This document shows positions 4,866 through 24,387 of a stretch of 24,387 bases of DNA, piece after piece. Both the position numbers and the translations under genes were made by a program. The notes beneath the pieces are model-generated. The model did not search any database. It saw nothing but the letters and a program-made list of their open reading frames with translations, and was not told the DNA's origin. This DNA is from a virus: IMG/VR virus record IMGVR_UViG_3300033148_004505, positions 42,665 to 67,051 of that record, one strand, 5' to 3'. How positions within the stretch are numbered: the first letter of the stretch is position 1; each line of letters opens with the position of its first letter.

Positions 4866-4866
4866 T

Positions 4867-4873
4867 AGGAGGG
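4867..4873 (+). promoter_or_regulatory. Ribosome binding site setting the start at 4880
   Basis: AGGAGGG lies six bases before the ATG at 4880. A longer open frame from 4802 overlaps the previous gene and has no such site, so the ATG at 4880 is preferred. Confidence 0.8.
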
Positions 4874-4879
4874 ATATTT

Positions 4880-5421: not shown

Positions 5422-5423
5422 CA

Positions 5424-5615
5424 ATGGTGTGTAACTGTGGTAAGCGTAATGCTTTTAAACCTGTTATAAACATTGTTGAACAATATAAATATTTAAAACC
5501 ACATCAAGTTAAAGCGAGACTAGAAGTTTTTAAGCGTAATTATTGTACTAATTGTAAAAAACGTTATGAGTGCGATTATGATATGTATCTTAATTGTATG
5601 ACAAGGCCGCGATAA
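5424..5615 (+). CDS. Small basic cysteine-rich protein (63 aa), possible zinc knuckle
   Basis: The ATG at 5424 is two bases after the previous stop; GGAAGGAG at 5403-5410 is somewhat far but usable, and an alternative ATG at 5388 would overlap the neighbour by 34 bases. Six Cys residues are present: C3 and C5 near the start, C41 and C44 as CTNC, then C50 and C58. With Lys and Arg richness this looks like a small zinc-binding fold, possibly contacting nucleic acid or acting as a structural clip. The function is unknown. It is one of several Cys-paired small proteins in this operon. Confidence 0.6.
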   Translation: MVCNCGKRNAFKPVINIVEQYKYLKPHQVKARLEVFKRNYCTNCKKRYECDYDMYLNCMTRPR

Positions 5616-5626
5616 GGGGGTAAATT

Positions 5627-6322
5627 ATGTCAGTTATTTTGGGGTCGATGACTCAGGTAATTATTGGGGGCGTTAATTCAGGATTTCAATCTATAAGTTG
5701 GAATATTAATAGACAGCCTAATCGTTTATGGCAGTTAGGGGATTGGTTACCTTGGCGCACTCAGATTGCTACAACTATAAGTATTAATGTGACAGCGTAT
5801 GCTGGTGCTTTGCCACGTTTAGATCAAAATATTATAAGGCCTTCTCAAGCATGCGAATTAAGCCCAGCGTCTATGCATGTTATATTAAATGCATCAGCAT
5901 GTCAGCCTAGCGATGCAATACATTTAGATCAAAATCCTATGTATATTACTAGCTATTCATACTCAAAAACTGATCCTATTGGTTATGGTACAGAGTCATG
6001 GTCGTTTCAAACGTGGTTGGCTTCTGATGTAACTGGAAATGAGTTTATAAACATACCTGCGCCTACTTATGTATTACAAGGTATAACTGAAGGACAGCGT
6101 AGTGGTGATCAATCTGGCATTGATAGAGGCATTGATTTGGTTACTGAAGGCTTGGTTACCGGTCAAGAAGGGAATGTGTCAGCAGGTCCTACAAGTATTG
6201 GCGAAGCTAGTACTATTGAATTGGGTATAGTAACCAGGATTGGTGGGGGTGATTTAGAAGCTGGTGGAAAAGTTGGAACATCTAGTGCTTCTATACCACA
6301 TACACCACTTTATATACAGTAG
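5627..6322 (+). CDS. Beta-rich virion protein, possible tube-like fold (231 aa)
   Basis: A clear AAGGGGG lies before ATG 5627. The N-terminal 145 residues are beta-rich: QVIIGGVNSGFQSISWNI, then ISINVTAYAG, then MYITSYSYSKTD and SWSFQTW. The opening and the terminal hairpin resemble tail tube or tube-like adaptor proteins, and the protein at 4260 repeats the same order. Residues from about 146 on are Gly-, Ser- and Thr-rich with low complexity (repeated 'EG' and 'TG' turns) and look like a flexible tail. No enzymatic motif is seen. It is best described as a structural protein of the tail tip. Confidence 0.55.
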   Translation: MSVILGSMTQVIIGGVNSGFQSISWNINRQPNRLWQLGDWLPWRTQIATTISINVTAYAGALPRLDQNIIRPSQACELSPASMHVILNASACQPSDAIHLDQNPMYITSYSYSKTDPIGYGTESWSFQTWLASDVTGNEFINIPAPTYVLQGITEGQRSGDQSGIDRGIDLVTEGLVTGQEGNVSAGPTSIGEASTIELGIVTRIGGGDLEAGGKVGTSSASIPHTPLYIQ

Positions 6323-6324
6323 AT

Positions 6325-6330
6325 AGGGAG
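6325..6330 (+). promoter_or_regulatory. Ribosome binding site setting the start at 6338
   Basis: AGGGAG lies seven bases before ATG 6338. A GTG at 6332 in the same frame is immediately adjacent to this site and is therefore an unlikely start. Confidence 0.7.
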
Positions 6331-6337
6331 AGTGGTT

Positions 6338-6748
6338 ATGGATTTAAAAGATAGATTTAAATTGGAAATACACTGGGAAAAGGTTGTTTATAATAAGGAT
6401 GGAGTAGCTCAACTTATTAATTGTTATTTGATTGGCCCAGTTTTAAATGAATTGACGCAGCTTAATAATGAGGATTATATATTTTTGGATTTTACTAATC
6501 AATATTGTATATTTATACCGTCATATTATATTGCTAAGTTTTATTGGAGAGGAGTGCATTATTTGGAATCTATTATTAAATTGGATTTTGCTTTATTGGA
6601 GAATAAGTATATTAATTCGGTGCCTAAACTTGAAAATGATGATTTTTTGATTGTTGATACTAGTAATCATACGGATGATAAACACGCTATGTATTTAACT
6701 TATGATGCATATTTAATTAGATATGATAAAATTCCTTATAGTTTTTAG
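6338..6748 (+). CDS. Hypothetical protein (136 aa)
   Basis: Start chosen at ATG 6338 rather than GTG 6332 because of AGGGAG at 6325-6330. The protein (MDLKDRFKLEIHWEKVV...) is acidic, rich in Tyr, Ile and Asn and has alternating strands, with no signal peptide or membrane helix and no recognised motif. It ends next to a gene of identical length (136 residues), but the two show no convincing similarity. The position suggests a small virion or tail assembly protein; nothing in the sequence defines its job. Confidence 0.6.
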   Translation: MDLKDRFKLEIHWEKVVYNKDGVAQLINCYLIGPVLNELTQLNNEDYIFLDFTNQYCIFIPSYYIAKFYWRGVHYLESIIKLDFALLENKYINSVPKLENDDFLIVDTSNHTDDKHAMYLTYDAYLIRYDKIPYSF

Positions 6749-8138: not shown

Positions 8139-9074
8139 ATGCCTAAGTGGAGTGAGTACGAAGATAGGTTTATTCTAAATAATTATGATAAATACGATTA
8201 CGCTACTCTTGGAAAACTAGTTGGTAGGTCTGAGAAAGCGGTTTCTGAGAGATTACGAATGTTTGGTGTGCATAAACGTACTTCATATAGACGTTGGTCG
8301 CAAGATGAAATCAAGGTATTATTTAAATGCTATAATGATAAATTACCGCCTATTAAGATATCTAAGTTATTGAATAGAAGTTATAGCTCTGTAATTTTGA
8401 AAGCTGAATCTCTTGGACTAAAACGTGATGAATATTATAGGCCTGAGAAGTACAACGTAGAATTTTTCACTAAGTGGTCCCATGAGTTAGCGTGGTTAGT
8501 TGGTGTTGTTATGTCAGATGGTTATGTGTCCAATCCTAAATTTGGTAAGTTTATTAGGGTTGCAATGTGTGATAGAGATGTTGTGTTTAATATAGCTAAA
8601 TTAATTGATTATGAAGGTAATATTATCCATAGACATAATAAGCATAATAAGGACGTTTTTATACTTAATATAAGTGGAAAACATGTTTGGAGTTTTTTTG
8701 TTGATTTAGGCATCACTCATAGTAAGTCTGTTGAATTAAAATTTCCGAATTTGCCAGAGATGTATATTTATAGTTGTATACGAGGTATTTTTGATGGGGA
8801 CGGGTCTATTTCTATAAATATGAAGACTATGTATCCTACGGCTAGAATTATAGGTATGAAAGACGTAATACGTTTTATTAGTAATGTTGTTAGTGTACCA
8901 TATAATTTATATGATTATAATAACAATGTTTGTATATTACAGTATACAGGCGAAAGAGCTATGGCTTTTTTGTGTGGTATTTATAAAGATAGTGTCGATT
9001 TAACTAGAATGCAGAGAAAATATTTATTATATATAAAATTAGTAGAGTGTGAGAGATGGCAGAATTTTATGTAA
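8139..9074 (+). CDS. LAGLIDADG homing endonuclease with N-terminal DNA-binding repeats (311 aa)
   Basis: Two LAGLIDADG motifs are visible: LVGVVMSDG at 120-128 with catalytic Asp 127, and IRGIFDGDG at 214-222 with catalytic Asp 221, about 94 residues apart as in single-chain enzymes. Such enzymes cleave a long DNA site in an allele lacking the gene and copy themselves in by repair. The first 100 residues contain two SANT/Myb-like helical repeats (W4 to about 45, W53 to about 96, each with a 'S/Y-S/K-x-V-x-x-R/K' third helix) that probably add DNA contacts. It is free-standing, not in an intron or intein. Its last 19 bases overlap the start of the 171-residue structural gene. Both catalytic acids are present, so it could be active. 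Confidence 0.88.
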   Translation: MPKWSEYEDRFILNNYDKYDYATLGKLVGRSEKAVSERLRMFGVHKRTSYRRWSQDEIKVLFKCYNDKLPPIKISKLLNRSYSSVILKAESLGLKRDEYYRPEKYNVEFFTKWSHELAWLVGVVMSDGYVSNPKFGKFIRVAMCDRDVVFNIAKLIDYEGNIIHRHNKHNKDVFILNISGKHVWSFFVDLGITHSKSVELKFPNLPEMYIYSCIRGIFDGDGSISINMKTMYPTARIIGMKDVIRFISNVVSVPYNLYDYNNNVCILQYTGERAMAFLCGIYKDSVDLTRMQRKYLLYIKLVECERWQNFM

Positions 9075-9583: not shown

Positions 9584-10882
9584 ATGGCTAATGAAAATAT
9601 TAAATTAGATAAAACTACACAATCTAATTTTACAGTTTATAAAGGTTATTTTTTTACATTTGATTATTCACAGGATAGTTTACTACAAAAAACTGATGAT
9701 GGTAATACGGCTTTTTCTTATCCTTTTGATGTGCTATTAGATCAGCCCGTAAAGAGTGCTGAATTTGATGGAGTATATTTTTGGTCACTAGAGAATCCTT
9801 CTGGTGAAATTAGGATTAAAAGATGGAAAGTGGATAATTATTTATGTAAATTACAACAATCTTTTATATACACTGACGATGTAAATTCTACTTACGATTC
9901 GAATGCTTTTTCTGTTGAGCATTATCACACAACATTTAAATATACTATTACAAGTGGTAGTACTTATTTATATATGTCTAAATATTCTAATGATAATAAT
10001 TTGATGGGCTTCACTACTACTAGTGGCAACGGGCTGTGTTTACATTTAGGTCCTAACTCTAATGGAGAGGAAGAAAATGTAACAGTTAGTGGTGTAGTTA
10101 CTGTTAGTGGTGCAGTTGTGAGTGGTGTTGTTGATTATCGTGTGGATTTAGCACAACCATTACAGTTTAATTATTCAGCAGGCGATGAGATTAATTTTTA
10201 TACTTATTTATGGGTTTTCAATAATTATGACGGCACGGATGGTAGTCGCGGCGCATTATATAAATTTGATGCGCATACAGGTAGTTATATTACCAGATAT
10301 GCTGGTGGAGCATATAAAAACATTACCGCTGCTACATTTTACAATGTATCGTCTTTTACAGAGTATGGAGATGTAGATACGCTCTGTTATGTTAAAGGTA
10401 CGAACATTTTATTTATTAATATTAACTCTACCAGCCCAGTTTTACCATACTATGGATCGATGGTAATGGAAAATGTTCAGTCTGATGAAAGGACGGTTAT
10501 ACCTATTTATGATTTAGCAATGGATAGTAAAAACGTGTATCGTTTGCAAGATATAGCTGATGGAGCGTCAAGCGCATGGAGTGCGTATAGTTATATTTTG
10601 TCATCATTAGAGTCGTTTGTTACATCAATTTCTTTAGCAGCTTATCCTGCAGTGTTAGCAGCTAACACTGTTTCTACAACTAATATTGTTGCTATTGTTA
10701 AGGATCAGTTTTTACAGCCTATTGCTGGTAGGTTAGTATATTTTTCTGATGATGATCCGGTAGGCAGCATTACTGGTGGTACACCAAAATCTACTGATAG
10801 TGAAGGTAAAGCTGAAACAGTTTATACATCTGGAGATTCGGCTCGTGAAGTTCTGATTACGGCGCGAGTTGAACAAACATAA
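9584..10882 (+). CDS. Appendage protein paralog 1, Big_1-like C-terminus (432 aa)
   Basis: AAGGAG at 9572-9577 precedes ATG 9584. It is the first of three tandem paralogs. Shared signatures are NENIKLDK at the start, FDGVYFWSLE at 61-70, SDERTVIPIYDLAMDS at 300-315 with VYRLQ after it, and a C-terminal domain at about 348-432. That last domain (SLAAYPAVLAANTVST, then IVAIVKDQFLQPIAGRLVYF, then DSEGKAETVYTSG) has the Big_1/invasin-type Ig pattern, with 'V-x-D-x-x-x-x-P-x-x-G' and 'T-D-x-x-G-x-A'. Residues 122-205 hold the beta module seen in its neighbours, here interrupted by a Gly/Ser/Val repeat (VTVSGVVTVSGAVVSGVV). It is probably an adhesive or decoration protein of the tail. The paralogy is seen; the role is inferred. 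Confidence 0.7.
   Translation: MANENIKLDKTTQSNFTVYKGYFFTFDYSQDSLLQKTDDGNTAFSYPFDVLLDQPVKSAEFDGVYFWSLENPSGEIRIKRWKVDNYLCKLQQSFIYTDDVNSTYDSNAFSVEHYHTTFKYTITSGSTYLYMSKYSNDNNLMGFTTTSGNGLCLHLGPNSNGEEENVTVSGVVTVSGAVVSGVVDYRVDLAQPLQFNYSAGDEINFYTYLWVFNNYDGTDGSRGALYKFDAHTGSYITRYAGGAYKNITAATFYNVSSFTEYGDVDTLCYVKGTNILFININSTSPVLPYYGSMVMENVQSDERTVIPIYDLAMDSKNVYRLQDIADGASSAWSAYSYILSSLESFVTSISLAAYPAVLAANTVSTTNIVAIVKDQFLQPIAGRLVYFSDDDPVGSITGGTPKSTDSEGKAETVYTSGDSAREVLITARVEQT
10082..10132 (+). repeat. Short in-frame tandem repeat (two 18-base copies plus a degenerate third)
   Basis: 10082-10099 and 10100-10117 match at 16 of 18 bases and encode TVSGVV and TVSGAV; 10118-10132 is a degenerate 15-base copy encoding VSGVV. 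It sits within the beta module of paralog 1 and is absent from the other two paralogs, so it looks like a recent slippage expansion. Confidence 0.75.
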
Positions 10883-10893
10883 TGGTGTAAATT

Positions 10894-12081
10894 ATGGTAT
10901 ATGAAAATTTACATTTTGCTAAACCTAACATGACAATTAAGGATAATTATTTTTTTATGTTTGATGAAGATAACGGTGTTCTATGGCAAAAGCTTCAAGA
11001 TGGAGATACAGCTTTTGTTTATCCATTAGATATGCCCCTTGATACAACAGTAATTTCGTTGGAGTATGATGGTTTATTTTTTTGGACTTTAGAGCAAATT
11101 AGTGGTGATTTATATATTAAACAGTGGCGTTTGCAAAATTTTTTATGTAGGCAATTACATAAATATTATTTTTCTGGTTTGCAAGCAGATGCTTTTACGA
11201 TAGAAAGTTATAATAGTTTATTAACGTCATCTGTAGTTAGCGGAAGCAACACTATTTATATAGAAGATGATTTTAGCTCTACTATTGTTAGTGGTGCTAA
11301 AGTATGTATTAGTAATGATTTTTATTATGAAGTTAATTCTGTTGTTAACGTTAGTGGTACAAAGATTACTCTTTCTAGTGGTGTAACTTATACATATGAT
11401 ATTGGTGATAATTTTTATTATGGTAAGAATATTTTGGTATTGTTAAACCAGGAGTTGTATAAATATCCTATTGATGGGACGTCTACTAGTGGTGTTAGCG
11501 TTGTTTATGGTGACTTTGTTAATATTTCAGCATCAACATTTACTAAAATTATTGGAATTGGCGCCCCTACTTATTTATTAGTTTATGTAAGAGACACTAA
11601 TTTGAAATTTTTAGATATTGGTACTATGACGTTGGAAGCTGTGGCGACTATTGATAATATAAAGACGGATAATAGTACAATTATAAAAATATATGACTTA
11701 GCTATAGGACGTGATTCTGTTTATCGTCTTCAAAAAGAAGCTAATTACTATGAACATGATTATAGCTGGAGTGATTATAATTATGTTTTATCGACTAGTA
11801 GGCGTTTTGTTGATACTACAAATGTGTCTGCTTATCCTATAATATTACCTGCAAATGCGGTTAACGTTACTAAAATAAGTGTGGTAGTGAATGATCAATA
11901 TGGTGATGGTGTTGTGAATAAGCCGGTTTTTGTTACAGATGATGATCCAGTGGGGTTTATAACTACACCTTTAGTTTATACCGATTATTTTTTTGGCACT
12001 GGAGAAGCAGTTACATATTATAAAGCTGGCACGTCTGTAAGAACTGTTACTATAGAAGGGCGAGCTACTCAGTTTGATTAG
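10894..12081 (+). CDS. Appendage protein paralog 2, Big_1-like C-terminus (395 aa)
   Basis: ATG 10894 is twelve bases after the previous stop with only a weak GGTG site. It matches paralog 1 in order: YENLHFAK at the start, YDGLFFWTLE at 58-67, KIYDLAIGRDSVYRLQ at 265-280, and a Big_1-like domain at 309-395 (VSAYPIILPANAVNV, then VVVNDQYGDGVVNKPVFV, then DDDPVG). The DDDPVG turn is identical in paralog 1. The beta module is at 115-178 (SGSNTIYIEDDFSST, then VNSVVNVSGTKITL). It has no extension after the Ig domain. It probably forms part of the same appendage as its neighbours, perhaps as a hetero-oligomer or alternating layer. Confidence 0.7.
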   Translation: MVYENLHFAKPNMTIKDNYFFMFDEDNGVLWQKLQDGDTAFVYPLDMPLDTTVISLEYDGLFFWTLEQISGDLYIKQWRLQNFLCRQLHKYYFSGLQADAFTIESYNSLLTSSVVSGSNTIYIEDDFSSTIVSGAKVCISNDFYYEVNSVVNVSGTKITLSSGVTYTYDIGDNFYYGKNILVLLNQELYKYPIDGTSTSGVSVVYGDFVNISASTFTKIIGIGAPTYLLVYVRDTNLKFLDIGTMTLEAVATIDNIKTDNSTIIKIYDLAIGRDSVYRLQKEANYYEHDYSWSDYNYVLSTSRRFVDTTNVSAYPIILPANAVNVTKISVVVNDQYGDGVVNKPVFVTDDDPVGFITTPLVYTDYFFGTGEAVTYYKAGTSVRTVTIEGRATQFD

Positions 12082-12088
12082 GTTATAA

Positions 12089-12122
12089 ACTTTATGCCTA
12101 AAGATGGGGCTTTTAGCAAAGT
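12089..12122 (+). other. Imperfect hairpin in the gap between paralogs 2 and 3
   Basis: The 56-base gap 12082-12137 is the longest in the window. ACTTT (12089-12093) pairs with AAAGT (12118-12122), and CTAAAG (12098-12103) pairs with CTTTTAG (12110-12116) with one bulge around a six-base loop. No T-run follows, so it is not a typical terminator. It could be an RNA processing or stability element, or chance in AT-rich DNA. Confidence 0.3.
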
Positions 12123-12137
12123 AAAATTGGTGAATAT

Positions 12138-14723
12138 ATGGCATATGAGAATGTAGAGTTTACACAAGCAAATTTTTGTATAGCGCCTAGAGCTGATGAA
12201 TTTTGTAGTATTGATCATACACAGGGCGCTAATGGTGTTTTGCAAATAAAGACTAGCACTGGGAGTTTACAAAAAACATATAGTTTGGATACGTCTATTA
12301 ATGAGGTCTATGCATTAGAATATACTGGCCCCCGTAGTTTATCATTATCATTTAGCCAATTAGGTAATGAGTTACCGTTTTTTACATTAGAACATGTTTC
12401 TGATTCTAATGTAAGAATACGAAGATGGAAGTTGAATAATATTTCTAATTCGTTGGTATTAGACGATACAATAAATTTATTTAATATTGGTAAATATAGA
12501 TTTAACTCATATGCTATGGCTGTTGAGCATTATGAAACTGATTTTGAGCAAGCTACTGCTACTGGGACTGGACGTATCAAAATAACTACTTATAGTGGTA
12601 TTGATTCTGGCGATGTTTTATTATTGGGACCTAGCACAGATTTAGATAATCAATATGCTTTTGAATATGTGCAAGTTACTAGTGTATCTGGTGGGTGGGT
12701 TTATATTACTGCAAGTGGGGTTACACCTCCTAGGCATGAGTATGCAGCTGGGGATGCTGTTACTTATTGGAAAAACATTTATTTATTTAGTGATGATGGA
12801 TTGAATGGAAACTATAATTATGGTTCGTATTATAAGGTAAATATTAACACTAAAACTGTTACAAGTGGTATTCAAGATGGGTTATTTAATAATATTAGAG
12901 CAGCCAGTTGGAGTCGAGATTATCAATCTGTAGGTTTTGTTAAGGATGTTAATATTTTATATTATAGTTTTGATAAGCAACAAGTGTTAAGATCGCAAAC
13001 TTTGAATAATATTGAATATGATGAGCGTACAGTTATTCCGATTTATAGTTTGGTTTTTGATAATCAAGTTATTTATCGTTTACAAAACAAACTTACTTTA
13101 GTAGACGATGATGGTAATAAGACGACTACTTCATGGAGTACATATAATTATCATAAAGATAGTATAGTGCCGTACACAAAAAGCATTTCTATTAAGCCTA
13201 TACCTGATGGTGTAGTGCTAAATGATCAACAGGTAACGTTGAAAGTTGTTGTGCGCGACCAGTTTGGAGTTGGATTGAACAATAAGACTGTTTATTTTTA
13301 TGATTCGCCAGATTTGGGGTCTTTTTCATCTAGTGGTCAAGTTACTACTAATGTGAATGGTGAGGCAACGATAATTTATGATGTTAATTATTTTAATCCA
13401 GAAGGCGTTGATGATGATTCTGTGGTTATTACTATTAGTGCGAAGGCTGATGGTGCGTCTTCGTTTACTGGTAGTCAGTATGTGTGGGGTGCTTTAGATT
13501 TATTATTGCTTAAAAGGTTTAAGATTAAATTGCAAAATTTATTACAAAAATTAGATAGGTACGAACTTTATACACAGCTTTCTCAGTTAGAAGGTTTAAG
13601 TATGGATTTTTATATAAAATGCTTAAATAAGTTTCAATTTCCAGGAGGGGATTGGATAGGAACCTCGCCACCGTCTGACTATACAATTATTGTTAAGCAA
13701 GTCGCAGACTTTGAAAGCGTAGATTATATCAAGCAATTAAGTAAAGATGTAAATATAGGTGCTCATGTCGAACAGTTAGCTGATAAGACAAATGATGTTC
13801 AATTAAGTCAATTATATATAAGCCGACACAAATCTTTTGGGCATAAAGACACTGTTCAAATAGACCAGTTTAGGTTTATTGAAGATGCTATACCTGCATT
13901 TTGGTCAGAAAAAAATCCTATTAATACTAATATTTATATTAGATTAAGACCGTTTGCTTTTAGTTTAAACCAATCTACACTTAAATTTAAAATTAGAGAA
14001 CTATCATATGTCGAGGATACCGGTTTTGTAGATGTTACATCGTTGTGCGCTATATCTACTTTTGATGCTGGTGGTGGTTTGTTAGGGCTGGACGTTGTAT
14101 ATAACCCTGTCAATGATTTTCATCATAGTGCCATAATTTATGTTTCAATAGAAGTTTATGACACTGCTCCATTGCCAAATATAATTTTGGCCGATTATTG
14201 GTTTAAAATAATTCCTGATTATAAAAGTCCGTATATTATAAATGAAACACCATCAAGAGAAGCTTGTGATGTGCCTATTGATAGCGATGTTTGTTTTGAT
14301 ATAATAGATGCTGGTGTTGGTGTTGATATAAACACACTAGAATTGTATGTTAACAATGTTGAAGTTAGTTATGTGACTACTGTTATTTCTGGTGGATACC
14401 ATATTTATTATACAAATGCAAGTGAATTTTTTTATGGGGAGACAGTTGAAGTAGCGGTAGGTGTGGAAGACAAGTCCACAAATCGGAATAGGTTATTTGA
14501 TGCGTGGAGGTTTTATTGTGTTGGTAGTACTGGTCCATGGATAGATGAGGAGAGTTTTTATCCTGAAGCATGTAGTAAAGGAATTCCTAGAAGGATACAT
14601 GGTGTTTCAGCAAATGTTTATGCGGTGGATGGGACTGGAATTGATAAGGATAGTATTTTAGTAAGAATAGGCGGTAAAGATAGAAAAGTTCAAATAATAC
14701 CAATAATATACCGATTAAAGTAA
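12138..14723 (+). CDS. Appendage protein paralog 3 with extended multi-Ig C-terminus (861 aa)
   Basis: Residues 1-345 match paralogs 1 and 2: YENVEFTQ, LPFFTLEH at 79-86, the beta module at 143-212 (GRIKITTYSGIDSGDVLLLG, EYVQVTSVSGGWVYI), and YDERTVIPIYSLVF with IYRLQ at 294-316. Residues 347-450 are a Big_1-like Ig domain (VVVRDQFGVGLNNKTVYFYD, then TTNVNGEATIIYD). Residues 451-585 are helical, including LLLLKRFKIKLQNLLQKL and a run with QLSQL motifs. Three further Ig-like units follow: about 588-692, 697-793 (SPYIINETP, DVPIDSDVCFDI, INTLELYVNN) and a partial unit 798-861. The last unit ends mid-domain at IIYRLK. It is likely the largest stalk or spike component of the appendage built from these paralogs. 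Confidence 0.7.
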   Translation: MAYENVEFTQANFCIAPRADEFCSIDHTQGANGVLQIKTSTGSLQKTYSLDTSINEVYALEYTGPRSLSLSFSQLGNELPFFTLEHVSDSNVRIRRWKLNNISNSLVLDDTINLFNIGKYRFNSYAMAVEHYETDFEQATATGTGRIKITTYSGIDSGDVLLLGPSTDLDNQYAFEYVQVTSVSGGWVYITASGVTPPRHEYAAGDAVTYWKNIYLFSDDGLNGNYNYGSYYKVNINTKTVTSGIQDGLFNNIRAASWSRDYQSVGFVKDVNILYYSFDKQQVLRSQTLNNIEYDERTVIPIYSLVFDNQVIYRLQNKLTLVDDDGNKTTTSWSTYNYHKDSIVPYTKSISIKPIPDGVVLNDQQVTLKVVVRDQFGVGLNNKTVYFYDSPDLGSFSSSGQVTTNVNGEATIIYDVNYFNPEGVDDDSVVITISAKADGASSFTGSQYVWGALDLLLLKRFKIKLQNLLQKLDRYELYTQLSQLEGLSMDFYIKCLNKFQFPGGDWIGTSPPSDYTIIVKQVADFESVDYIKQLSKDVNIGAHVEQLADKTNDVQLSQLYISRHKSFGHKDTVQIDQFRFIEDAIPAFWSEKNPINTNIYIRLRPFAFSLNQSTLKFKIRELSYVEDTGFVDVTSLCAISTFDAGGGLLGLDVVYNPVNDFHHSAIIYVSIEVYDTAPLPNIILADYWFKIIPDYKSPYIINETPSREACDVPIDSDVCFDIIDAGVGVDINTLELYVNNVEVSYVTTVISGGYHIYYTNASEFFYGETVEVAVGVEDKSTNRNRLFDAWRFYCVGSTGPWIDEESFYPEACSKGIPRRIHGVSANVYAVDGTGIDKDSILVRIGGKDRKVQIIPIIYRLK

Positions 14724-14760: not shown

Positions 14761-15381
14761 ATGGCCGTTGAAATTACTAATTTTTCTTTAGACAAAAAGG
14801 AGTGGAGGAGTGTAGATGATTTAAATTATTTTAGCGTTAATGTTGTAGAGACTGATACTGCACATTCAATAGTTACGTCTGGAACTTATTTTATTAGGAA
14901 TGGTGTTAAGGTTGCTACAACTTATTCTGGTATATCTAATGGGTATGAATGTAGATATTACCCACCGTCATTAGTCTCCAGCGGAATTATTTATTTGGAT
15001 TTTAGGGCTGAAAGTACGTCTGGAGAAGTAAGGTTTGTAAGTTATGAATTATTGTATGGGTATCATTTATTATTTGATGAAATAGTGAATTGGAGTCCTA
15101 ATCAAGAAGTAGTAGTATCTATTTATGCACAAAATGCGGTTATATGCCCTAATGTAGAAAGCAAAGCTTTTTCATTTGAAATTAAAGATTTGCGGTCTAC
15201 ATCATTACAAGCATCTATAAGACCTATAGATAGTGTAGATTTAACGGCAAGTATTTATCCTCAAGACGTTGTATTTTATTATGGGGGTACTTACAGTATT
15301 ACAGTTTCTGGTGTACGTGATTTTAGCGGAAATGAATTAGAACGGTTTAGTTTTACGTTTACAATTGAGAATCCAACTTAG
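14761..15381 (+). CDS. Two-domain Ig-like structural protein (206 aa)
   Basis: ATG 14761 follows AGGAG at 14743-14747, a rather long 13-base spacing. Residues about 1-105 look like the Ig-like unit of the 861-residue protein: YFIRNGVKVATTYSGISNGY aligns with its LYVNNVEVSYVTTVISGGYH. Residues about 108-206 form a Big_5-like Ig domain ending in YYGGTYSITVSGVRDFSGNE and FSFTFTIE, the typical 'Y-x-v-x-v-x-G-v-x-D-x-x-G-N' signature. No signal peptide is present. Following a gene that stops inside an Ig-like domain, it may be a natural continuation of that stalk as a separate chain. It is probably a tail appendage component. Confidence 0.65.
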   Translation: MAVEITNFSLDKKEWRSVDDLNYFSVNVVETDTAHSIVTSGTYFIRNGVKVATTYSGISNGYECRYYPPSLVSSGIIYLDFRAESTSGEVRFVSYELLYGYHLLFDEIVNWSPNQEVVVSIYAQNAVICPNVESKAFSFEIKDLRSTSLQASIRPIDSVDLTASIYPQDVVFYYGGTYSITVSGVRDFSGNELERFSFTFTIENPT

Positions 15382-15392
15382 GAGGTTTAGAT

Positions 15393-16994
15393 ATGGTAGC
15401 TGTTACAAGATGGGTAGAGTATTCTCCATCAGCAGCAGGTGAAGCAGATGATGGTAGGAATGCTGGGTGTAAAGGAACTCGTGGTTATTGTATAGGGACA
15501 TCAGATCCTGGCGATACTATTACTATTGGTCCTACTACAAATCGTTTGCATTTAAGTATAGATGGAGATTCTGGCCCATATATTACATTATATTCTGGAA
15601 CAAATTTAGATCCAAGATTTGTTGCACGTGATGTTACTGAAAAACTACATAATTTGGGCAAGTCTGATGCTAGATGGGACCACGCTGTTTGTAGGTGGGA
15701 AAACGTTACAATTAGTGGTAGTATATCTAAAAGAAATAGATTTGTTATTTATTCAGGTAGTTTAGGATCAAGTTCAAGCGTGTCTGTTGTTAGTGGTACT
15801 AATTCTGCGCACCAAGTTTTGGGATTTCAAACTAAATATGAACATGGTGGTACAGCTACGCCTGATGGTAAAGCATCGTACACTTTTTCTGGTAATGTTT
15901 CTATATCTGGGACATATTATGGTTTATTTGATGAGGTTTATAAGATAGTTATTACTAACGACAATGATGCTACACGTGGGATAGGAACTCCTACTAAAGG
16001 AGGTAGTAATACATACGCTGGAACGTTAACCACTGGCGGTGTTTTTAATTATACATCTGATATTCAGTATACTATAGAAATAGACACAACAAACGGTACA
16101 ACGATGGGGGCTGGGACTGGTAATGTGCCAAGAATGCGTTGGACTAGTTCACCGAATATAGACAGTCAGACTGATTGGATTGAGTTACTATATTCTGATT
16201 ATTGGTATAATATTGGTAAATATGGATTAAGAGTTAAATTTAGTGATGCAGTGTTTAATACGTGTAATCCAGCTTGGACTATCCAGTGCTATAAACCAGA
16301 CTATGCTGCTGGGACTAACGCAAGTGCTCCAGTTGGCACAGCGCAATATGTTTATAGTTCTGATAGAGGAGATGATAGTTCAGCTCCAGTGACAACTATT
16401 TCAGGTGGTTGGACACAGTTAGGTTCTAGAGGTTTAAAAATAAAATTTAATCCGTCAGGTGGTTCAGATAATCTTGGGGCTGGCGATTGTTTTTATGTTA
16501 TTTGTTCTGGACCTAAACCATCTAATTATAATATTACACAATTGAATTATGGAAATGTTACTGTTTCTACAGAGAGTGATGTTAAAACAGTAATGTTTGA
16601 GATAGAGTCTGGAGCTACTCAGATGAGTACTGTTAAATTTGGTTTGAATAGCCATGGCACGTTTAATCACCATGGGGCTGGTAATAATGATACTTATTTT
16701 AGATTTGGTACTGTAGGTCCTGGTCATAATGCAGGTAGTGCGCCTAATAATGGCGTTGAGTGGCATCCTAATATTCAAGCTTCAGATATTGATAATGATA
16801 CTCCTCCTAGTTATTTATATGCTACTAAAGCTAATTTGAATGTTGTTAGTACTGCTGATGACAGTGAGTCTATTGGGCAGTATAATTTGTGTGGATTAAC
16901 CAGTGATCCAATTTGGCTTAATATTAGATTGGGAGTAGCTGAAACGGGAGCTAATTCATCTATTTTGTATCGTTTATTCTTCGACTATGCATAA
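15393..16994 (+). CDS. Fibre-like beta-rich structural protein (533 aa)
   Basis: A strong AGGAGG at 15380-15385 precedes ATG 15393 and overlaps the upstream stop. Residues 48-145 carry the module also found at 88-189 of the 315-residue protein: RLHLSIDGDSGPYITLYSG, a helix, then NRFVIYSGSLGSSSSVSVVS and VLGFQ. Residues about 182-303 and 317-373 look like two copies of a beta unit, each closing with 'W-x-x-I/L-G-x-x-G-L-R/K-V/I-K-F' (YWYNIGKYGLRVKF and GWTQLGSRGLKIKF) and then a strand ending in a Cys. The C-terminal 160 residues are Gly-, Asn- and His-rich and may be the receptor-facing end. No enzymatic site is visible. It is probably a tail fibre or adsorption protein. Its last eight bases overlap the nuclease gene. 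Confidence 0.6.
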   Translation: MVAVTRWVEYSPSAAGEADDGRNAGCKGTRGYCIGTSDPGDTITIGPTTNRLHLSIDGDSGPYITLYSGTNLDPRFVARDVTEKLHNLGKSDARWDHAVCRWENVTISGSISKRNRFVIYSGSLGSSSSVSVVSGTNSAHQVLGFQTKYEHGGTATPDGKASYTFSGNVSISGTYYGLFDEVYKIVITNDNDATRGIGTPTKGGSNTYAGTLTTGGVFNYTSDIQYTIEIDTTNGTTMGAGTGNVPRMRWTSSPNIDSQTDWIELLYSDYWYNIGKYGLRVKFSDAVFNTCNPAWTIQCYKPDYAAGTNASAPVGTAQYVYSSDRGDDSSAPVTTISGGWTQLGSRGLKIKFNPSGGSDNLGAGDCFYVICSGPKPSNYNITQLNYGNVTVSTESDVKTVMFEIESGATQMSTVKFGLNSHGTFNHHGAGNNDTYFRFGTVGPGHNAGSAPNNGVEWHPNIQASDIDNDTPPSYLYATKANLNVVSTADDSESIGQYNLCGLTSDPIWLNIRLGVAETGANSSILYRLFFDYA

Positions 16995-18171
16995 ATATTG
17001 TAAATGCGGTTGTGGTAAATTAGTTAAAGGTAATAATGATTATTTACATGGACATAATCGACGTGGTTTAGTTAGTAATACTACTAATGGAAAATGGTCA
17101 CGTCAGTATGATAAGTGTATTAAGTGCGGTACTACTGAATACAAACATAATGCTAAGGGTTTGTGTGTTAAATGTTATAAGAAAGAATTATATAGAAAAC
17201 GTAAAGCTAAATTGGTTAAATGGTCGAGAAAATATGAAAAATGCATAGACTGTGGTACAACCGATAGGCCGTATGCTGCTAGTGGAAGATGTATTAGATG
17301 CCATGTTAGATCGATTAATAGAAAAAAGGGCGTGCGTGAAAGGAAAGCAGGGAATTGGTCATTGTCTTTTTCTAAATGTTTAAATTGTGGTACTACTAAA
17401 TACCCACATGCTGGTCATGGATTATGTTCTAAATGTTATTTAGAATCTAGGAGGAATATAACTAAAGCGAAATTTAAATGCCCAGTGTGTGGTACTAAAT
17501 TAAATAAGCTATACCAACATATGGCATTAAAAATTAAAACTTGTGAAGAACATTTTAATTATATGTATAATTTGTTGAAGATATATTTTGACAGTGATTT
17601 TAGTGTTAACGAGATAAGTAAGGAATTAGATATGGATAGGCATAGTTTGACTAGGTGGTTTATTCGTTTGTTTGGTAAAAATAAAACTATGTTGCGTAAT
17701 GAAAGAATTAGGCGGTGTGTCATATCTGAGCATGCAGTGTTAAATTATAATAGGCACGGTAAGTATGGTACTGTTGTTAAATATGATTCTCCATATCAAG
17801 GTGGATTATTGTTAAGATCTAAAACTGAAGCTAGATATGCTGATTTTTTAACAATTAATAATTATAAATGGTTTTATGAGATTCGCAAATTTCCTTATAT
17901 AGATAAGTACGGTAATAGGCGCTCATATACACCTGATTTTTATTTGGAAGATTTTGATGTGTACGTGGAAGTTAAAAGTAAAAATATAACACGTAATGAG
18001 CTGTTAGAAGTGATTGATAAAATAGATAGAGTGTTTTTTTTAGTGGGGCAAGTATTTGGGTTGTTTGTGTTTAGATGTATGGATGGGATGGGAAGTAACT
18101 ATAGTGTGGTATATAACTATGTTTTAGGAAATGGAGGTTTATATGCAACGTTATTGGGAAGTTCAACTTAA
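16987..18171 (+). CDS. Modular PD-(D/E)XK homing-type endonuclease with zinc knuckles and HTH (394 aa)
   Basis: A Cys/His cluster opens the protein (C5, C7, C9, H21, H23). Three near-repeats follow, each of the form 'W-S-x-x-x-x-K-C-I/L-x-C-G-T-T ... G-x-C-x-x-C' with ligands C44/C47/C60/C63, C86/C89/C102/C105 and C131/C134/C147/C150. A C2HC-like finger is at 165-189 (C165, C168, H178, C186, H189). Residues 206-230 look like a helix-turn-helix (VNEISKELDMDRHSLTRWF). The core at 277-330 is PD-(D/E)XK: E281 in RSKTEARYADFL, E298, D317 in YTPDFYL and E328-V-K330. This layout fits a DNA-cleaving selfish element. Its start overlaps the upstream gene by eight bases without a ribosome site, and its end overlaps the next gene by 29. 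Confidence 0.82.
   Translation: MHKYCKCGCGKLVKGNNDYLHGHNRRGLVSNTTNGKWSRQYDKCIKCGTTEYKHNAKGLCVKCYKKELYRKRKAKLVKWSRKYEKCIDCGTTDRPYAASGRCIRCHVRSINRKKGVRERKAGNWSLSFSKCLNCGTTKYPHAGHGLCSKCYLESRRNITKAKFKCPVCGTKLNKLYQHMALKIKTCEEHFNYMYNLLKIYFDSDFSVNEISKELDMDRHSLTRWFIRLFGKNKTMLRNERIRRCVISEHAVLNYNRHGKYGTVVKYDSPYQGGLLLRSKTEARYADFLTINNYKWFYEIRKFPYIDKYGNRRSYTPDFYLEDFDVYVEVKSKNITRNELLEVIDKIDRVFFLVGQVFGLFVFRCMDGMGSNYSVVYNYVLGNGGLYATLLGSST
18133..18137 (+). promoter_or_regulatory. Ribosome binding site embedded in the nuclease coding sequence
   Basis: GGAGG lies five bases before ATG 18143 while also coding for the C-terminal Gly-Gly of the nuclease. It selects ATG 18143 over the in-frame ATG at 18131, which overlaps the site itself. 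Confidence 0.75.
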
Positions 18172-18457
18172 AGATGGAACTATTATAAGAGAAGGACAGA
18201 TGGAGTGGCGCGAAGTTCCAAAAAAAGCCATAGTTCGTCTGTCTTTATTTTTTGATGGTAGATCTTGGCATTTAACTAATAAAGAAGCTTATTTTGTTAA
18301 ATATCGTGCTTCAATGGTTCCAGGAATAGCAGATAGTTTTAGATTGGAACGACGTACTGTAGGATTTTATGAAGGGCGTTGTAAAGTGTGTTATCATGTT
18401 GATGAGTTGACTGGCCGTTTTTATATGGAGGTTATAGACACCAATGCTACCAACTAG
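18143..18457 (+). CDS. Hypothetical small protein (104 aa)
   Basis: Start chosen from GGAGG at 18133-18137. The N-terminal 60 residues (WEVQLKDGTIIREGQMEWRE, then VRLSLFFDGRSWHL) follow a pattern I associate with small phage proteins in which 'L-K-D-G-x-x-I-x-E' is followed by a W and a short beta sheet, but I cannot name a family. A single C80-x2-C83 pair occurs in GRCKVCYHVD with a nearby His (H85). Its start overlaps the nuclease by 29 bases and its end overlaps the next gene by 14, so it is likely translated in concert with the 1753-residue protein and may be a partner of it. Confidence 0.65.
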   Translation: MQRYWEVQLKDGTIIREGQMEWREVPKKAIVRLSLFFDGRSWHLTNKEAYFVKYRASMVPGIADSFRLERRTVGFYEGRCKVCYHVDELTGRFYMEVIDTNATN

Positions 18458-21400
18458 TGCCTCTGGAATTTATTTATGTCAATATTGGGTAAAAGAGCCA
18501 CAGAGGTGTAGTAAGTGGGATTTAGAAAACATTCATTGCACATATAAAGAGGCAGATTTTTATCCGTTTTGTAATTTATTAGGTACTCAAACAAAATGTG
18601 GTCAGTATGATGGTGATAAATCTAAGCTTCAATACATGTGTGTTAGACCAGATCCTTATAGAACGGTGCCTAGCCGTAAAATTGGTAAATGGGTAAATTT
18701 ACCAGTGTTGAATAAAGATGGAGAAGTTATTAATGCTGGGGATTATAATCCAATCACTTTTTATAATAAGGGAGCTTGTGATGGTTATGGTACGGCATTA
18801 AAATGTAGTGGGTATATGCCGTTTAATATGGCGTTTTCAGCTTTGCAGCCTGATGATCGAGCAGGCTCATTAGGGTATGATTTAGATGAGATAACTACAA
18901 CTGCTAATCTTGTTTTTAGGCTACCATTAAATTTTAAAATTTACAATCTACGTGCTAAGTTATCACGGTGTTATTGGTGGAAAGATAGCCCACAAGAATT
19001 TACAGTTAATGCTAGTGGTATTGTGCAGAAACCTTATTATGCTTGTACTAATCCAGATGAAATAACGCTTAAGTTCAATGATTTTTATTATGACGCGAAG
19101 CTTAATATGTATGTACCGCCATGTAATGGGGCTAAGCCCGAATGTCCTAGGTATACTGGGGTTTGCTGGGAATATTGTATAGATAAATATATGAGGCATG
19201 GTGATTATGTTTCTGCTGAGCAGATATTGGAGTTACGTTATTATATACGTAAAGATAGGTGGACGTTTGAAGACTATTATAATTCATTTTATGAGGGCGA
19301 TATTTTTACTTGGGATGGGTATTTATTAGATTTTAATAATATTATACCTAGTCATAGGGTTTATTTTGTAGACTTTGAGTATTTTAATATTGATAGTAGA
19401 AGCACTGCTTTAACTACTGGTTTATCATCTGAGGGACTTTGGCCAAGCTTTCCTACATTAGTGAGAGAGCTTAAGACTACGTCATTAGCGCCTATCATTA
19501 GAAATGTTTTTGATAAGTTGGAAAATAAAAATGTGTTTGAGACTTCTGATATTAATCATAAATATATAACTATTTTTGGAGATCAATTTTATTATGGTTC
19601 TGATACTTATGCATTTAATTTGAATGATCCAGAGTTAGATATTCCAGCTTACATTAAAAGTTTTTTATTAAATAATAAAAGTTTGTCAGATGCAAAGGCA
19701 AATTTAGTGGATACGTTTGATGATTTGTATCAAGATTATAAGAATTATATCGAATTTTTTATAAATAGCAGTTCAGACCATGTGATTAAATCTGATGTAG
19801 GATCTGATAAAAATATGTTTTATATGGATGTGCCAACTTTTTTTGGTACTAATACAATTATTGTTGTTAATAATGGAAGCGGCGAGTGGGAGTTTGATAA
19901 AATAACGTTCGAGAAGATTTATGTTGGAGGAGTTATTGGCCAGACCTCATTCAAAATACATGGAACTGGAGTAGTAAATTATTTGCCATCATATGAAGAC
20001 AGTTTTACTGCTGATTTAAATAATAACGGAGAGGTTACATTTAAATTTTTTTCTTTAACGTCTTATAAGGTTAAAATTGATAATCCAGTGGAGTATGTTT
20101 ATTTAGACGGCGTGAAGAGACGATTGAGTCCATCATTAATTAATCCATTACCGTATACTTTATGGAAGATGAATTATAAACTTTACAAAAAAACTGTTTT
20201 TTCTAATTTAGAATTAGGCATTAACAATATTAAATTTTTTGGAAACGCTGGCTATGCGCTTGTTATTTTGCCGGATGATGCTAAAGTGCTTACTAACGTT
20301 ATTAAACCGTGGGAAGCTGAGGGTATACGGCTTTATTATAGCACTAATAATTATATTGATATGGTTATTGTTGCTAAGTGCAACGACAAATTAGAACTTA
20401 ATCAATGTATTATAAAACCAAAATCTATTGCAGATTTTTCTAAAGTTTGCTCTGATGTGGTGCTTAAAATAGATAAAATTTATATTTATGAGAGACACAC
20501 GGCTTCCGAAGTTATGGCTGATGCTAGTTACGAAGAAGTTAATGAAGAATTTATAGCTGATGATGATGTTGTTACGTATACTAATTCGGTTATAGTTGAT
20601 AATGGCGAATATTACTCAATTGAAAAATTTTCTGATATGCCATTAGTTCCGTCTGTTGTTTTTAAAGGGCATACTGGTAGGATTAGAGGGCAAGTTAAAA
20701 CTAAGTTAATAACATGGGTAAGGCAGCCATATTGTAGGGATGTGGAAATATATTATAAGTGGAAGGCAAATTATTTACAATATAAATTATTACCAGAGTT
20801 TGTCAAATATGGACCTGTTGGAGTTGAAACTTACAATGAGTTAGTAACGAAGCTGTATAGTCCTCCATGCGGGGATCATGATTTATCTTTTATAACACAG
20901 ATAGGGCCTCTTTGGTATCCTTATAGTGCTTGTGCTGAGTATGCTAATTATAATATACGAAGTAATATTTTAGGTGTGGATATTGGAATTATGGAAGTGT
21001 TTAATGATGATTATTCATCTGATTATAAACACGGCCAGCACGATTTACGTATGCTTGGGCCGGCTGATAATTTTGGAGTTATATGTGATATCCATTCTAC
21101 TATATGGACATGTCACGAAGACTGGTCTTATTGTAATTTAGAAAAAAAGGGGGAAAATATTTTTGTTGGTTATGCACGTTATCGCGGCGGCTTGTCGTAT
21201 GCTGATAAATTAAAGGCATCACAGTTTGGTGGTTCTTTGCCTAAATTTGGTAATGTTTATCGTGATTTTTTAAGAAGTTTTAGAGCAGTTGATAATATAG
21301 ATTATTATTATTGGAGTGGAAGTGGCTATATACGTAAATCCAAATGGGTTCCTATGACTGAGCTGTATTCTGTTATGGATGCTGGAGGCTCTATTACTGA

Positions 21401-23705
21401 TTACCCGTATTTAACGTACATTAGCAATGATTTTTATAATGATGGTAGTTTTTATATGGACCAGTTCGGTTTGTTATTGGCTTCAACTATAGAAAACGTA
21501 AACATTAATGAAGAAATTGTAAATGATGATAATGGAGTGGTACGTTTTCGTTTTGATGAAATTTTTAAAGCACACTGGATAAGTGGTATTTATTACCCGT
21601 ATCCTAGGAAATTGTATTTACATGGTAATAATCTTATTCCAGTAATTTCATGGTATACGTATAAAGATAATCCGTTAGGTGATATTACGAAGTCAATTCA
21701 GTGGGTGTGGAGAGAGTATTGGAAAGATATAGAACGGCAAAAAATTTTATTTGATTATGATTGGTTCGATAAATTTAGTGTATTAAGTGGGCATTATATA
21801 AATAAAAACAAGGCTGTGATTGATAGTTTATTGTTAAAACAGTATAAAGAGAGTGATGGTAAGGTACAAGGCCGTCACTTATTTTTAGATATAAATTATC
21901 CGCCATATAAGTATAATTATCTGATTGAGGAGCATAGATTAGTATGTGATGAAGGTGAGCAGTTAATTAAAATTTATGCTCCTGAAATTTCTGATGATTT
22001 AACATATGATTCGAGTGCCGTTTGGCGAATTCAGTTGAATGATGGGCCGATACGTTGTTTTAATATAAACGGAGAATGGGTTGATCAAATAACAACGAGT
22101 GGGGCTGAGGAGTGTAATATAAATTTATATAAAGTTTGTACTAAAGATCCTTGGCTTGATGACGTAACAATTTTTGATACTGGATATGCTAGTACTGCTC
22201 CGTCAGATGATAGGACTATAATTACTTATGATGATGTTGGAGATGAAGTTAAGAATTATTATCAGCGTGGTTTAAATGTTTCTTTAAATACTAGCAGATT
22301 TAATTATTTACCGTATAAATTACATATGTTGGATTCAAAATTATACGATTTACGTTTATCGGTTAAGCCTACTTTAAGTGAAAATGAATGGAGTACTATT
22401 GAATCTACGGAATATTTTTACCCAGCAAAGTACGATTTAAATATTGATTATAATTGTAAGGTAGAGGAAGTAAGTATTACAGTATATAACGATAGTGGGG
22501 TTAGTATTGGAGGAATGTCGGTTGTATTTAAAGTAGGCGCACTTGAAGGCGCGTACCCTGATATTGATAAGAAACCTATATTTTCAGGACAATTATACCA
22601 TGTTCCAGCAATTAAGGTTTATAGGTCTAATGATGATGTTAATTATGAATTAGTTTATGAGAATAACAATATGTTACTATATGGAAAGAACGATAGTTTT
22701 AATACAGTAAATATTTTTTATGAATTTTTATTATCTACGCAGCAAAAACTTATTGGGAGTAAATATACAAAAGTAGTATTTAGGTTAAAACCGACTATTG
22801 ATGAATTAAATAAATATGGAGATATGGTTAAATATTATGATTCAATTTATGTTATTAATCATGTGTTTATTGATGGTTTATATTTTTATTATATAGAATT
22901 TATAGATGCAGTAGAAAAAATTACTACTTACGAACGAAAATACGCTGTTTCTATAGGAAGTCATGGTGATTTTCCACCACATGGGTATGAATCGACCGGG
23001 TCTTTATTGTATAAACTTCCTAGCGATAACGCTACTGTGTATCAAATGGATAGCGTGTATGGGGTAGTAGGCATGCCGGGATCTAGTGGAGATCATAAAA
23101 CTATGAATAAATTACGTGGAAGAATTATGAAGCAGTGTCATGCGGATAAAGAAGCTATTTCAGGTCCAAAAGACCCTCATTATTATGAAAGTAGGCAGAA
23201 AGCTATACATGATAGTATTATTAATGAGGGTGGTGTGCAGTTTAATATGGAGTCGTGTTTACCGCCGTTTTTAAGTGAGCAGTTAGCTGAATTAAACATA
23301 CCATTTCCTAGATGGAAGTGTGTTTTTGAGAATACATATGTAAGGCCTTTAGCAGAAATTATTGCTTTTGCTAGATACAGTCCTTGTGGTCATAAGTTTG
23401 TATATGATTTTGATACGCTACGGTATGTACCGTGTATTTTATGTGGAAGGACGTTTCCAGTTCCTTGTGTGTGGAAGGATATTTATGATAAGGTGTTTAC
23501 TAGAGCATGCGATGATAGTTATAGGAAGGTGCCGAACACTGCTGTAGTAGCTTATTTCAAAGGAATTGCAAATATTTTAATACGTCCTTTTGAATATTTT
23601 TTGGCTCCGACTGTTGAACGTTATGAGAGTGTTTCTAAGGTTTTACGTAGTTGGAGTGGAAGTGTTTTAATGAATTTGCCAGACAACGTTCAAAATTTGT
23701 ATTAA
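18444..23705 (+). CDS. Giant cysteine-rich putative virion protein (1753 aa)
   Basis: ATG 18444 lies 12 bases after GGAGG (18427-18431) inside the preceding gene. I do not recognise a family. The first 250 residues hold 14 Cys (12, 22, 32, 43, 52, 66, 112, 121, 176, 201, 227, 234, 241, 245) with many Tyr and Trp. The middle is long, beta-rich and rich in Tyr, Asp and Asn. A segment with VEEVSITVYNDSGV and later AIKVYRSNDDVNYELVYE looks like a jelly-roll such as discoidin or carbohydrate-binding domains; this is tentative. The C-terminal 150 residues hold C1605, C1626, C1648/H1650 (PCGHKF), C1664-x2-C1667, C1675 and C1689, resembling a zinc site. No transmembrane or signal segment is evident. 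It is probably a very large tail or baseplate appendage protein, given its place in the operon. Confidence 0.6.
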   Translation: MLPTSASGIYLCQYWVKEPQRCSKWDLENIHCTYKEADFYPFCNLLGTQTKCGQYDGDKSKLQYMCVRPDPYRTVPSRKIGKWVNLPVLNKDGEVINAGDYNPITFYNKGACDGYGTALKCSGYMPFNMAFSALQPDDRAGSLGYDLDEITTTANLVFRLPLNFKIYNLRAKLSRCYWWKDSPQEFTVNASGIVQKPYYACTNPDEITLKFNDFYYDAKLNMYVPPCNGAKPECPRYTGVCWEYCIDKYMRHGDYVSAEQILELRYYIRKDRWTFEDYYNSFYEGDIFTWDGYLLDFNNIIPSHRVYFVDFEYFNIDSRSTALTTGLSSEGLWPSFPTLVRELKTTSLAPIIRNVFDKLENKNVFETSDINHKYITIFGDQFYYGSDTYAFNLNDPELDIPAYIKSFLLNNKSLSDAKANLVDTFDDLYQDYKNYIEFFINSSSDHVIKSDVGSDKNMFYMDVPTFFGTNTIIVVNNGSGEWEFDKITFEKIYVGGVIGQTSFKIHGTGVVNYLPSYEDSFTADLNNNGEVTFKFFSLTSYKVKIDNPVEYVYLDGVKRRLSPSLINPLPYTLWKMNYKLYKKTVFSNLELGINNIKFFGNAGYALVILPDDAKVLTNVIKPWEAEGIRLYYSTNNYIDMVIVAKCNDKLELNQCIIKPKSIADFSKVCSDVVLKIDKIYIYERHTASEVMADASYEEVNEEFIADDDVVTYTNSVIVDNGEYYSIEKFSDMPLVPSVVFKGHTGRIRGQVKTKLITWVRQPYCRDVEIYYKWKANYLQYKLLPEFVKYGPVGVETYNELVTKLYSPPCGDHDLSFITQIGPLWYPYSACAEYANYNIRSNILGVDIGIMEVFNDDYSSDYKHGQHDLRMLGPADNFGVICDIHSTIWTCHEDWSYCNLEKKGENIFVGYARYRGGLSYADKLKASQFGGSLPKFGNVYRDFLRSFRAVDNIDYYYWSGSGYIRKSKWVPMTELYSVMDAGGSITDYPYLTYISNDFYNDGSFYMDQFGLLLASTIENVNINEEIVNDDNGVVRFRFDEIFKAHWISGIYYPYPRKLYLHGNNLIPVISWYTYKDNPLGDITKSIQWVWREYWKDIERQKILFDYDWFDKFSVLSGHYINKNKAVIDSLLLKQYKESDGKVQGRHLFLDINYPPYKYNYLIEEHRLVCDEGEQLIKIYAPEISDDLTYDSSAVWRIQLNDGPIRCFNINGEWVDQITTSGAEECNINLYKVCTKDPWLDDVTIFDTGYASTAPSDDRTIITYDDVGDEVKNYYQRGLNVSLNTSRFNYLPYKLHMLDSKLYDLRLSVKPTLSENEWSTIESTEYFYPAKYDLNIDYNCKVEEVSITVYNDSGVSIGGMSVVFKVGALEGAYPDIDKKPIFSGQLYHVPAIKVYRSNDDVNYELVYENNNMLLYGKNDSFNTVNIFYEFLLSTQQKLIGSKYTKVVFRLKPTIDELNKYGDMVKYYDSIYVINHVFIDGLYFYYIEFIDAVEKITTYERKYAVSIGSHGDFPPHGYESTGSLLYKLPSDNATVYQMDSVYGVVGMPGSSGDHKTMNKLRGRIMKQCHADKEAISGPKDPHYYESRQKAIHDSIINEGGVQFNMESCLPPFLSEQLAELNIPFPRWKCVFENTYVRPLAEIIAFARYSPCGHKFVYDFDTLRYVPCILCGRTFPVPCVWKDIYDKVFTRACDDSYRKVPNTAVVAYFKGIANILIRPFEYFLAPTVERYESVSKVLRSWSGSVLMNLPDNVQNLY

Positions 23706-23710
23706 AGGAG
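23704..23710 (+). promoter_or_regulatory. Ribosome binding site setting the start at 23716
   Basis: AAAGGAG overlaps the stop of the 1753-residue gene and lies five bases before ATG 23716. The GTG at 23710 in the same frame begins on the last base of the site and is rejected. Confidence 0.75.
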
Positions 23711-23715
23711 TGCCT

Positions 23716-24108
23716 ATGTTTACTATTCTTTGTGATGATTGTGGTGGCGAGTTAATTATAAATGAGCAAAAAACTTTGGATGAATATTTTAAAGATGCTG
23801 ATTATTTGTTGGATGAGAATAGCGGAAAATTAGTTGATGATTCTATTCAGCAGTATTTAATTTATACGTGCAGTGTATGTCAAAAGAGCTATAAATATAC
23901 ATATAAAGAATGGGAAGCTAAATATAGAGAAAAGCTAGCGCGACAGGTTATGGAAATGCGTAAGCAAAAGATGTTTGCTGAAATTATAAACCCACAGTTA
24001 ATTGATCCTGATAACGGTATAGAGTTTTGTGGTAGGTGTAGTGGTTATGGTGGAGATGGGTACTGTTTGGTAGATATTATTAAACAGTGTACAATTCGTA
24101 AGGAGTAA
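23716..24108 (+). CDS. Zinc-ribbon-like small protein (130 aa)
   Basis: ATG 23716 follows AAAGGAG. The first half has C6-x2-C9 (LCDDCGG) and C52-x2-C55 (TCSVCQKSY), the spacing of a zinc ribbon with a roughly 40-residue insert. A charged helix at about 63-90 (YKEWEAKYREKLARQVMEM) follows. A second Cys group, C105-x2-C108, C117 and C125, could form another metal site. No DNA-binding or catalytic family is recognised. It lies directly after the giant protein, whose C-terminus also carries a Cys/His cluster. It may be a chaperone or a minor structural part; that is a guess from position. Confidence 0.65.
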   Translation: MFTILCDDCGGELIINEQKTLDEYFKDADYLLDENSGKLVDDSIQQYLIYTCSVCQKSYKYTYKEWEAKYREKLARQVMEMRKQKMFAEIINPQLIDPDNGIEFCGRCSGYGGDGYCLVDIIKQCTIRKE

Positions 24109-24109
24109 T

Positions 24110-24387
24110 ATGTATAATATTTTTAAAGACGCCAGATTAATACAAAATTCTGATTATTGTCGTTTTGACTCTTTAGATGCCTACTCTACGAATTTTATAA
24201 CTGATGGTGATGTCGATGGGTGGGATGTGTATTATAATATGTATTTGTATTGTAGTTGGCATGGTGTTTTGGTAGGCAATCTGAAAGATGGGAGTGCTTA
24301 TATAAGCAGATCTAATCCATTTATACCTATTGATGGTTCGGATTTTTACTATATACGTATTATGATGAAGTATACAGCTTTTGATGA
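24110..24387 (+). CDS. Start of a further structural gene (3' partial, 92 aa visible)
   Basis: ATG 24110 follows AGGAG at 24101-24105, with the previous stop ending at 24108. The frame is open to the end of the window. The visible part starts MYNIFKDARLIQNSDYCRFD and contains DGWDVYYNMYLYCSWHG, then SNPFIPIDGSDFYYIRIMMK. The order 'W-D ... S-x-P-F-I-P-I-D-x-S-x-F-Y-x-I-R-I' resembles a carbohydrate-binding-like beta sandwich seen in phage tail proteins. Only the N-terminus is present, so the assignment is tentative. Confidence 0.6.
   Translation, partial: MYNIFKDARLIQNSDYCRFDSLDAYSTNFITDGDVDGWDVYYNMYLYCSWHGVLVGNLKDGSAYISRSNPFIPIDGSDFYYIRIMMKYTAFD

Follow-up and report, generated by a model that had tools for sequence, protein, structure and literature searches.

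A cysteine-rich 1753-residue protein from uncultured phages: a new family in a conserved tail-gene cassette and a possible tail-tip adhesin

Results

The window analyzed here is the whole stretch of 24,387 nucleotides comprising bases 42665 to 67051 of a 67,051-base IMG/VR virus record, and the genes described from position 9584 onward lie on the plus strand. The open reading frame at 18444..23705 starts with ATG, contains no internal stops, and encodes a putative tail-tip protein of 1753 amino acids with several domains and with relatives across IMG/VR contigs. A GGAGG motif lies 12 bases 5' of the ATG, and the start of the gene shares a 14-base overlap with the gene preceding it. The protein contains 36 cysteines (2.05%). 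An origin of the frame by frameshift or artifact could be excluded because its relatives are full length in a single frame, and searches for RNA families, tandem repeats, and tRNAs gave nothing bearing on this gene.

The gene is part of a tail-gene cassette whose order (861-206-533-108-1753-132-giant, by product length in amino acids) is conserved in 29 diverged loci, to the end of each contig, with the tape measures lying upstream. At 9584..14723, the same cassette holds three adjacent tail-fiber-like genes (432, 395, and 861 aa) that are related to each other and carry Big_1 Ig-like domains, either at the end or within; a tandem duplication of a fiber gene is probable. The cassette comparison further identified the conserved 206- and 533-aa genes (14761..16994) and, inserted behind them, a homing-endonuclease-like gene (16987..18171) that is accessory, being absent from L002 and L003; relatives of it occur in 14 of the 29 loci and in most cases separate the 533-aa gene from the 108-aa gene. 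The structural module is rich in genes of this kind (8139-9074 and 16987-18171 in the window and 4327-5148, 5171-6661, 14931-16403, and 18154-19800 in L035). The conserved 108-aa partner (18131..18457), which overlaps the start of the 1753-aa gene, is present in 28 of the 29 loci, and the contig of the sole locus lacking it begins inside the 1753-aa gene.

On the other side, at 23710..24108, lies the gene for a 132-aa partner with the motifs CxxC...CxxC and C-G-x-C-x(8)-C-x(7)-C. It is found in 24 of the 29 loci, its 8 cysteines (two sets of four, CxxC...CxxC and CGxCxG....GxC.......C) are retained in essentially all relatives, and a dedicated role in assembly or in the handling of metal is conceivable. 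The window closes with the start of a downstream giant tail protein (24110..24387), cut by the contig end. In most relatives this giant is 2.1 to 3.1 kaa long, and its profile matches are to F5/8C (9e-9) or laminin-G (5e-16) domains. The iterated profile of this giant (e.g., L020:15784-22590) also matches the 533-aa protein (window 15393-16994), which suggests that the two share a domain of ~100 residues. At L028:1851-2854, two small genes resembling halves of a putative thiamine-diphosphate-dependent decarboxylase lie amid the tail genes.

The original prediction, made from the sequence of the window, had been that the 1753-aa protein belongs to no recognizable family, and this was borne out: no profile match, whether to a known tail protein family or to an enzyme family, was obtained in PHROGs, Pfam, or NCBIfam, and none at E values of up to 10 in a profile search of PDB sequences. 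INPHARED (50,697 phage records) contained no real match, the best having an E value of 0.08 over 4% of the query, and diverged family members used as queries gave no useful match in these same five collections. Scans of viral and genome contigs with the protein as the single query sequence found no relatives; these were reached only via the neighboring 861-aa gene (12138-14723) and afterwards via an alignment. The scan with the neighbor gene gave four related contigs with homologues at the same place, either full length or truncated by the contig, the alignment-based scan gave 29 loci, including the 4 contigs found before, and another scan, using a diverged branch, added three further loci (L066, L068, and L069). 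Full-length relatives are present in ~30 IMG/VR contigs from uncultured phages, in every case within the same tail-gene cassette, with 22 to 73% identity to the 1753-aa protein across its N-terminal two-thirds, while the GTDB species genomes contained none.

The N-terminal cysteine framework domain (residues 1 to 250; 18444..19193) contains 14 near-invariant cysteines, at positions 12, 22, 32, 43, 52, 66, 112, 121, 176, 201, 227, 234, 241, and 245. The count noted in the original prediction holds, and the clustering differs from random placement (hypergeometric P = 2.0e-4). Nor are these cysteines scattered and unconserved at the N terminus, as 12 to 14 of the 14 are retained in 26 of 28 aligned sequences, the exceptions being L024, which is cut at the contig edge, and L033, which lacks Cys 22, 32, 43, and 66 as well as 201 and 241. 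Among the 28 sequences, C12, 52, 112, 121, 176, 227, and 234 are kept in every filled column, C22, 32, and 66 in every filled column save for the L033 deletion, and C43, 201, 241, and 245 nearly always. In the L066 group, the first cysteine block has for the most part been lost; the N terminus of this group was placed by profile alignment, the MAFFT alignment having put the cysteines at the wrong places. In the alignment, 17 of 35 cysteine columns show at least 93% identity, compared to ~6% of all columns. Residues 1 to 250 are the best-conserved part of the protein, and the mean pairwise identity declines from 0.40 here to 0.24 in the jelly-roll described below, which together with the extreme C terminus is the least conserved.

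The AlphaFold model of the cysteine domain is poor (pLDDT of ~30 to 82 by block), with little regular secondary structure. It is followed by a predicted Ig-like beta-sandwich region (residues ~296 to 805; 19329..20858), in which residues 340 to 760 form beta-sandwiches mostly at pLDDT 80 to 93. Foldseek matches of the N-terminal half are of the Ig or adhesin type and are weak, being nonsignificant beyond "Ig-like strings." Residues 809 to 890 (20868..21113) constitute a candidate metal site that is absent from the original prediction: C809 and H812 of an invariant C-G-D-H motif, C830, and C890 are each present in 27 of 27 aligned sequences, and C764 is present in 25 of 27. The invariant C-x2-H...C...C pattern makes this set look more like a metal site, and judged from the alignment, it probably binds metal.

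The model of residues 700 to 1753 has a mean pLDDT of 77, and its top Foldseek matches in the PDB are CBM32/discoidin domains, with a probability of 1.0 to several CBM32 structures, a modest E value of 5e-4 for 4lks, and a TM score by target of 0.64 for 4a42. We assign residues ~1331 to 1506 (22434..22961), with limits set from the strand pattern and the sequence, as a predicted CBM32 or F5/8 type C (discoidin)-like jelly-roll. This is a structural assignment only: in contrast to CBM32 and F5/8 type C domains proper, there is no sequence-profile match (the PF00754 F5/8C profile matched neither the protein nor its relatives in Pfam), and the jelly-roll is one domain of a 1753-aa protein. The C-terminal Cys/His cluster that had also been proposed (residues 1648 to 1689; 23385..23510) consists of Cys 1648, 1664, 1667, 1675, and 1689 and H1650. 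It is present, but its conservation is partial, with C1664 kept in 26 of 26 sequences and H1650 in 21 of 26, while the other cysteines occur in about half or fewer (C1648 and C1689, 11 of 26 each; C1667, 3 of 10). The lack of conservation that was to count against the original prediction thus holds in part for this cluster, but not for the N-terminal cysteines.

Discussion

By sequence comparison, the 1753-aa protein defines a family not described before, all of whose members come from uncultured phages with enormous tape-measure genes. What was an orphan giant open reading frame is now a family of ~30 members with a domain layout, a fixed gene neighborhood, and a testable cysteine framework. 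The cysteine density of the protein, which had been called unusual, is so in comparison with the other tail genes of the window (mostly 0 to 2%), but it has a precedent in the Agrobacterium phage Milano, where structural proteins average 2.1% cysteine and the virion is locked by disulfides (PMC10811340). The likeness lies in the ~2.1% cysteine and in the conserved cysteines of tail or baseplate proteins. Milano differs in its contractile tail with intersubunit disulfides in the sheath, tube, and baseplate (PMC10811340), and no homologous phage record for the 1753-aa protein was found in INPHARED.

Of the metal sites or postrelease disulfides put forward in the original prediction, we favor disulfides in the N-terminal domain, because separate lineages have acquired or dropped cysteines there two at a time, and a metal site at C809/H812/C830/C890. 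The extra cysteines 106 and 118 (ISC...G-x-C) were gained jointly in three lineages (L010; L033; and L066/L068/L069) and never singly, Cys 108 and 119 are present jointly in L026 and L030 and never singly, and Cys 241 and 245 are jointly missing in L066-L069. An odd number of cysteines, such as 15 or 17, is present in several relatives and speaks against full pairing. Based on the paired gains and losses and on the analogy with Milano, the domain is probably a compact framework whose disulfides would close after release. A Zn or Fe-S fold, metallated in the cytoplasm during assembly, can be entertained tentatively in its place. Such a fold would be consistent with the invariance of the N-terminal cysteines, with the little secondary structure in the model, and with the zinc-ribbon-like cysteine motifs in the neighboring 132-aa and downstream giant proteins. 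Within residues 227 to 245, where Cys 241 is exchanged for 236 in the L028 clade and 245 for 230 in L013, about four cysteines remain at shifted positions, as would suit a four-ligand site. However, the N-terminal domain of the window protein has no CxxC pair, and both the gain of Cys 106 and 118 as a pair in separate lineages and the even-numbered losses in L033 (22, 32, 43, 66 and 201, 241) argue against a metal fold.

That the protein is a virion component, as originally predicted, is supported indirectly by the conserved gene neighborhood, in which it comes after the tape measure and before the giant with lectin domains. The Big_1 domains upstream and the F5/8C or laminin-G domains of the downstream giant point to the cassette being an adhesion module. 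With moderate confidence, we interpret the 1753-aa protein as a large structural tail-tip adhesin, docked by its cysteine-rich N terminus and contacting host glycans with its C-terminal half. The N terminus, the slowest-evolving part, would anchor the protein at the tail tip, the beta-sandwich modules in the middle would act as a spacer, and the fast-evolving jelly-roll would bind host surface glycans ahead of DNA ejection. The conservation gradient is what would be expected of a protein that is held to the virion by its N terminus and faces the host with its C-terminal half.

The size, the tail position, and the carbohydrate-binding-like domain would also fit a tail-tip enzyme, a glycan depolymerase or peptidase with accessory lectin domains, and many charged residues are invariant (E1023, R1034, E1091, E1170, R1204, R1275, E1497, and R1498). 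We consider an enzyme unlikely, as no enzyme family was matched in Pfam, PHROGs, NCBIfam, or PDB sequences and the top Foldseek matches are binding or Ig-like modules, which are noncatalytic. It is very unlikely that the protein is the central tail hub or host specificity protein (gpJ/Tal-like), despite its size range, its tail location, and one weak BFVD match (probability of 0.20) to an entry bearing the name host specificity protein J. Hub-like genes follow the tape measure closely (window 1157-3858, with a weak baseplate-hub match), while the 1753-aa gene lies ~15 kb further downstream and has no hub profile match in PHROGs.

As a tail-tip adhesin, the protein would resemble the modular tail adhesins built as strings of Big_1/Ig, FN3, and lectin domains, with which it shares the string of beta-sandwiches, the lectin-like domain, and the location in a tail operon. 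In contrast to these, it has the 14-Cys N-terminal framework and the C809-GDH812/C830/C890 set, both without a known match; the invariant framework matched nothing in any library searched (PHROGs, Pfam, NCBIfam, PDB sequences, and INPHARED). The protein thus appears to work like a modular tail adhesin while belonging to no named family. A more far-reaching version, to which we give little credence, is that the 14-Cys domain acts as a latch under redox or metal control, which would keep the adhesin locked on the tip until the host is contacted, in a lineage-wide and otherwise unseen tip cassette on tails of >1 micrometer.

To the left of the window, a single frame of 6,909 aa with tape-measure profile matches (G000 21942-42671; L036:1942-20000 and L037:1-2671) was found, and in related records where the frame appears to be spanned whole, it measures 7,430 to 8,654 aa. 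Tail length is usually ~1.5 Å per tape-measure residue, and frames of 6,909 to 8,654 aa therefore predict tails of ~1.0 to 1.3 micrometers. The ultralong tail of phage P74-26, the longest that the cited study describes, is nearly 1 micrometer (PMC10034513). The phages described here would be like P74-26 in having a very long tail, as inferred from the giant tape measure, but INPHARED contains no related record for their capsid or tip proteins, and their tape-measure frames extend to 8,654 aa. The tip cassette can serve as a marker for more such uncultured phages, with predicted tails equaling or exceeding that of P74-26, and for their hosts.

The tip has evolved far more quickly than the head, since five of the six records matched carry a major capsid protein with 81 to 87% identity (59% in the sixth) while the tip protein is down to 22%. 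Two of the capsid matches contain in-frame TAA codons (one in G006:C1:39535-40605 and two in G007:C1:165926-167011) despite 81 to 84% identity, possibly reflecting an insertion, an intron, or an assembly error.
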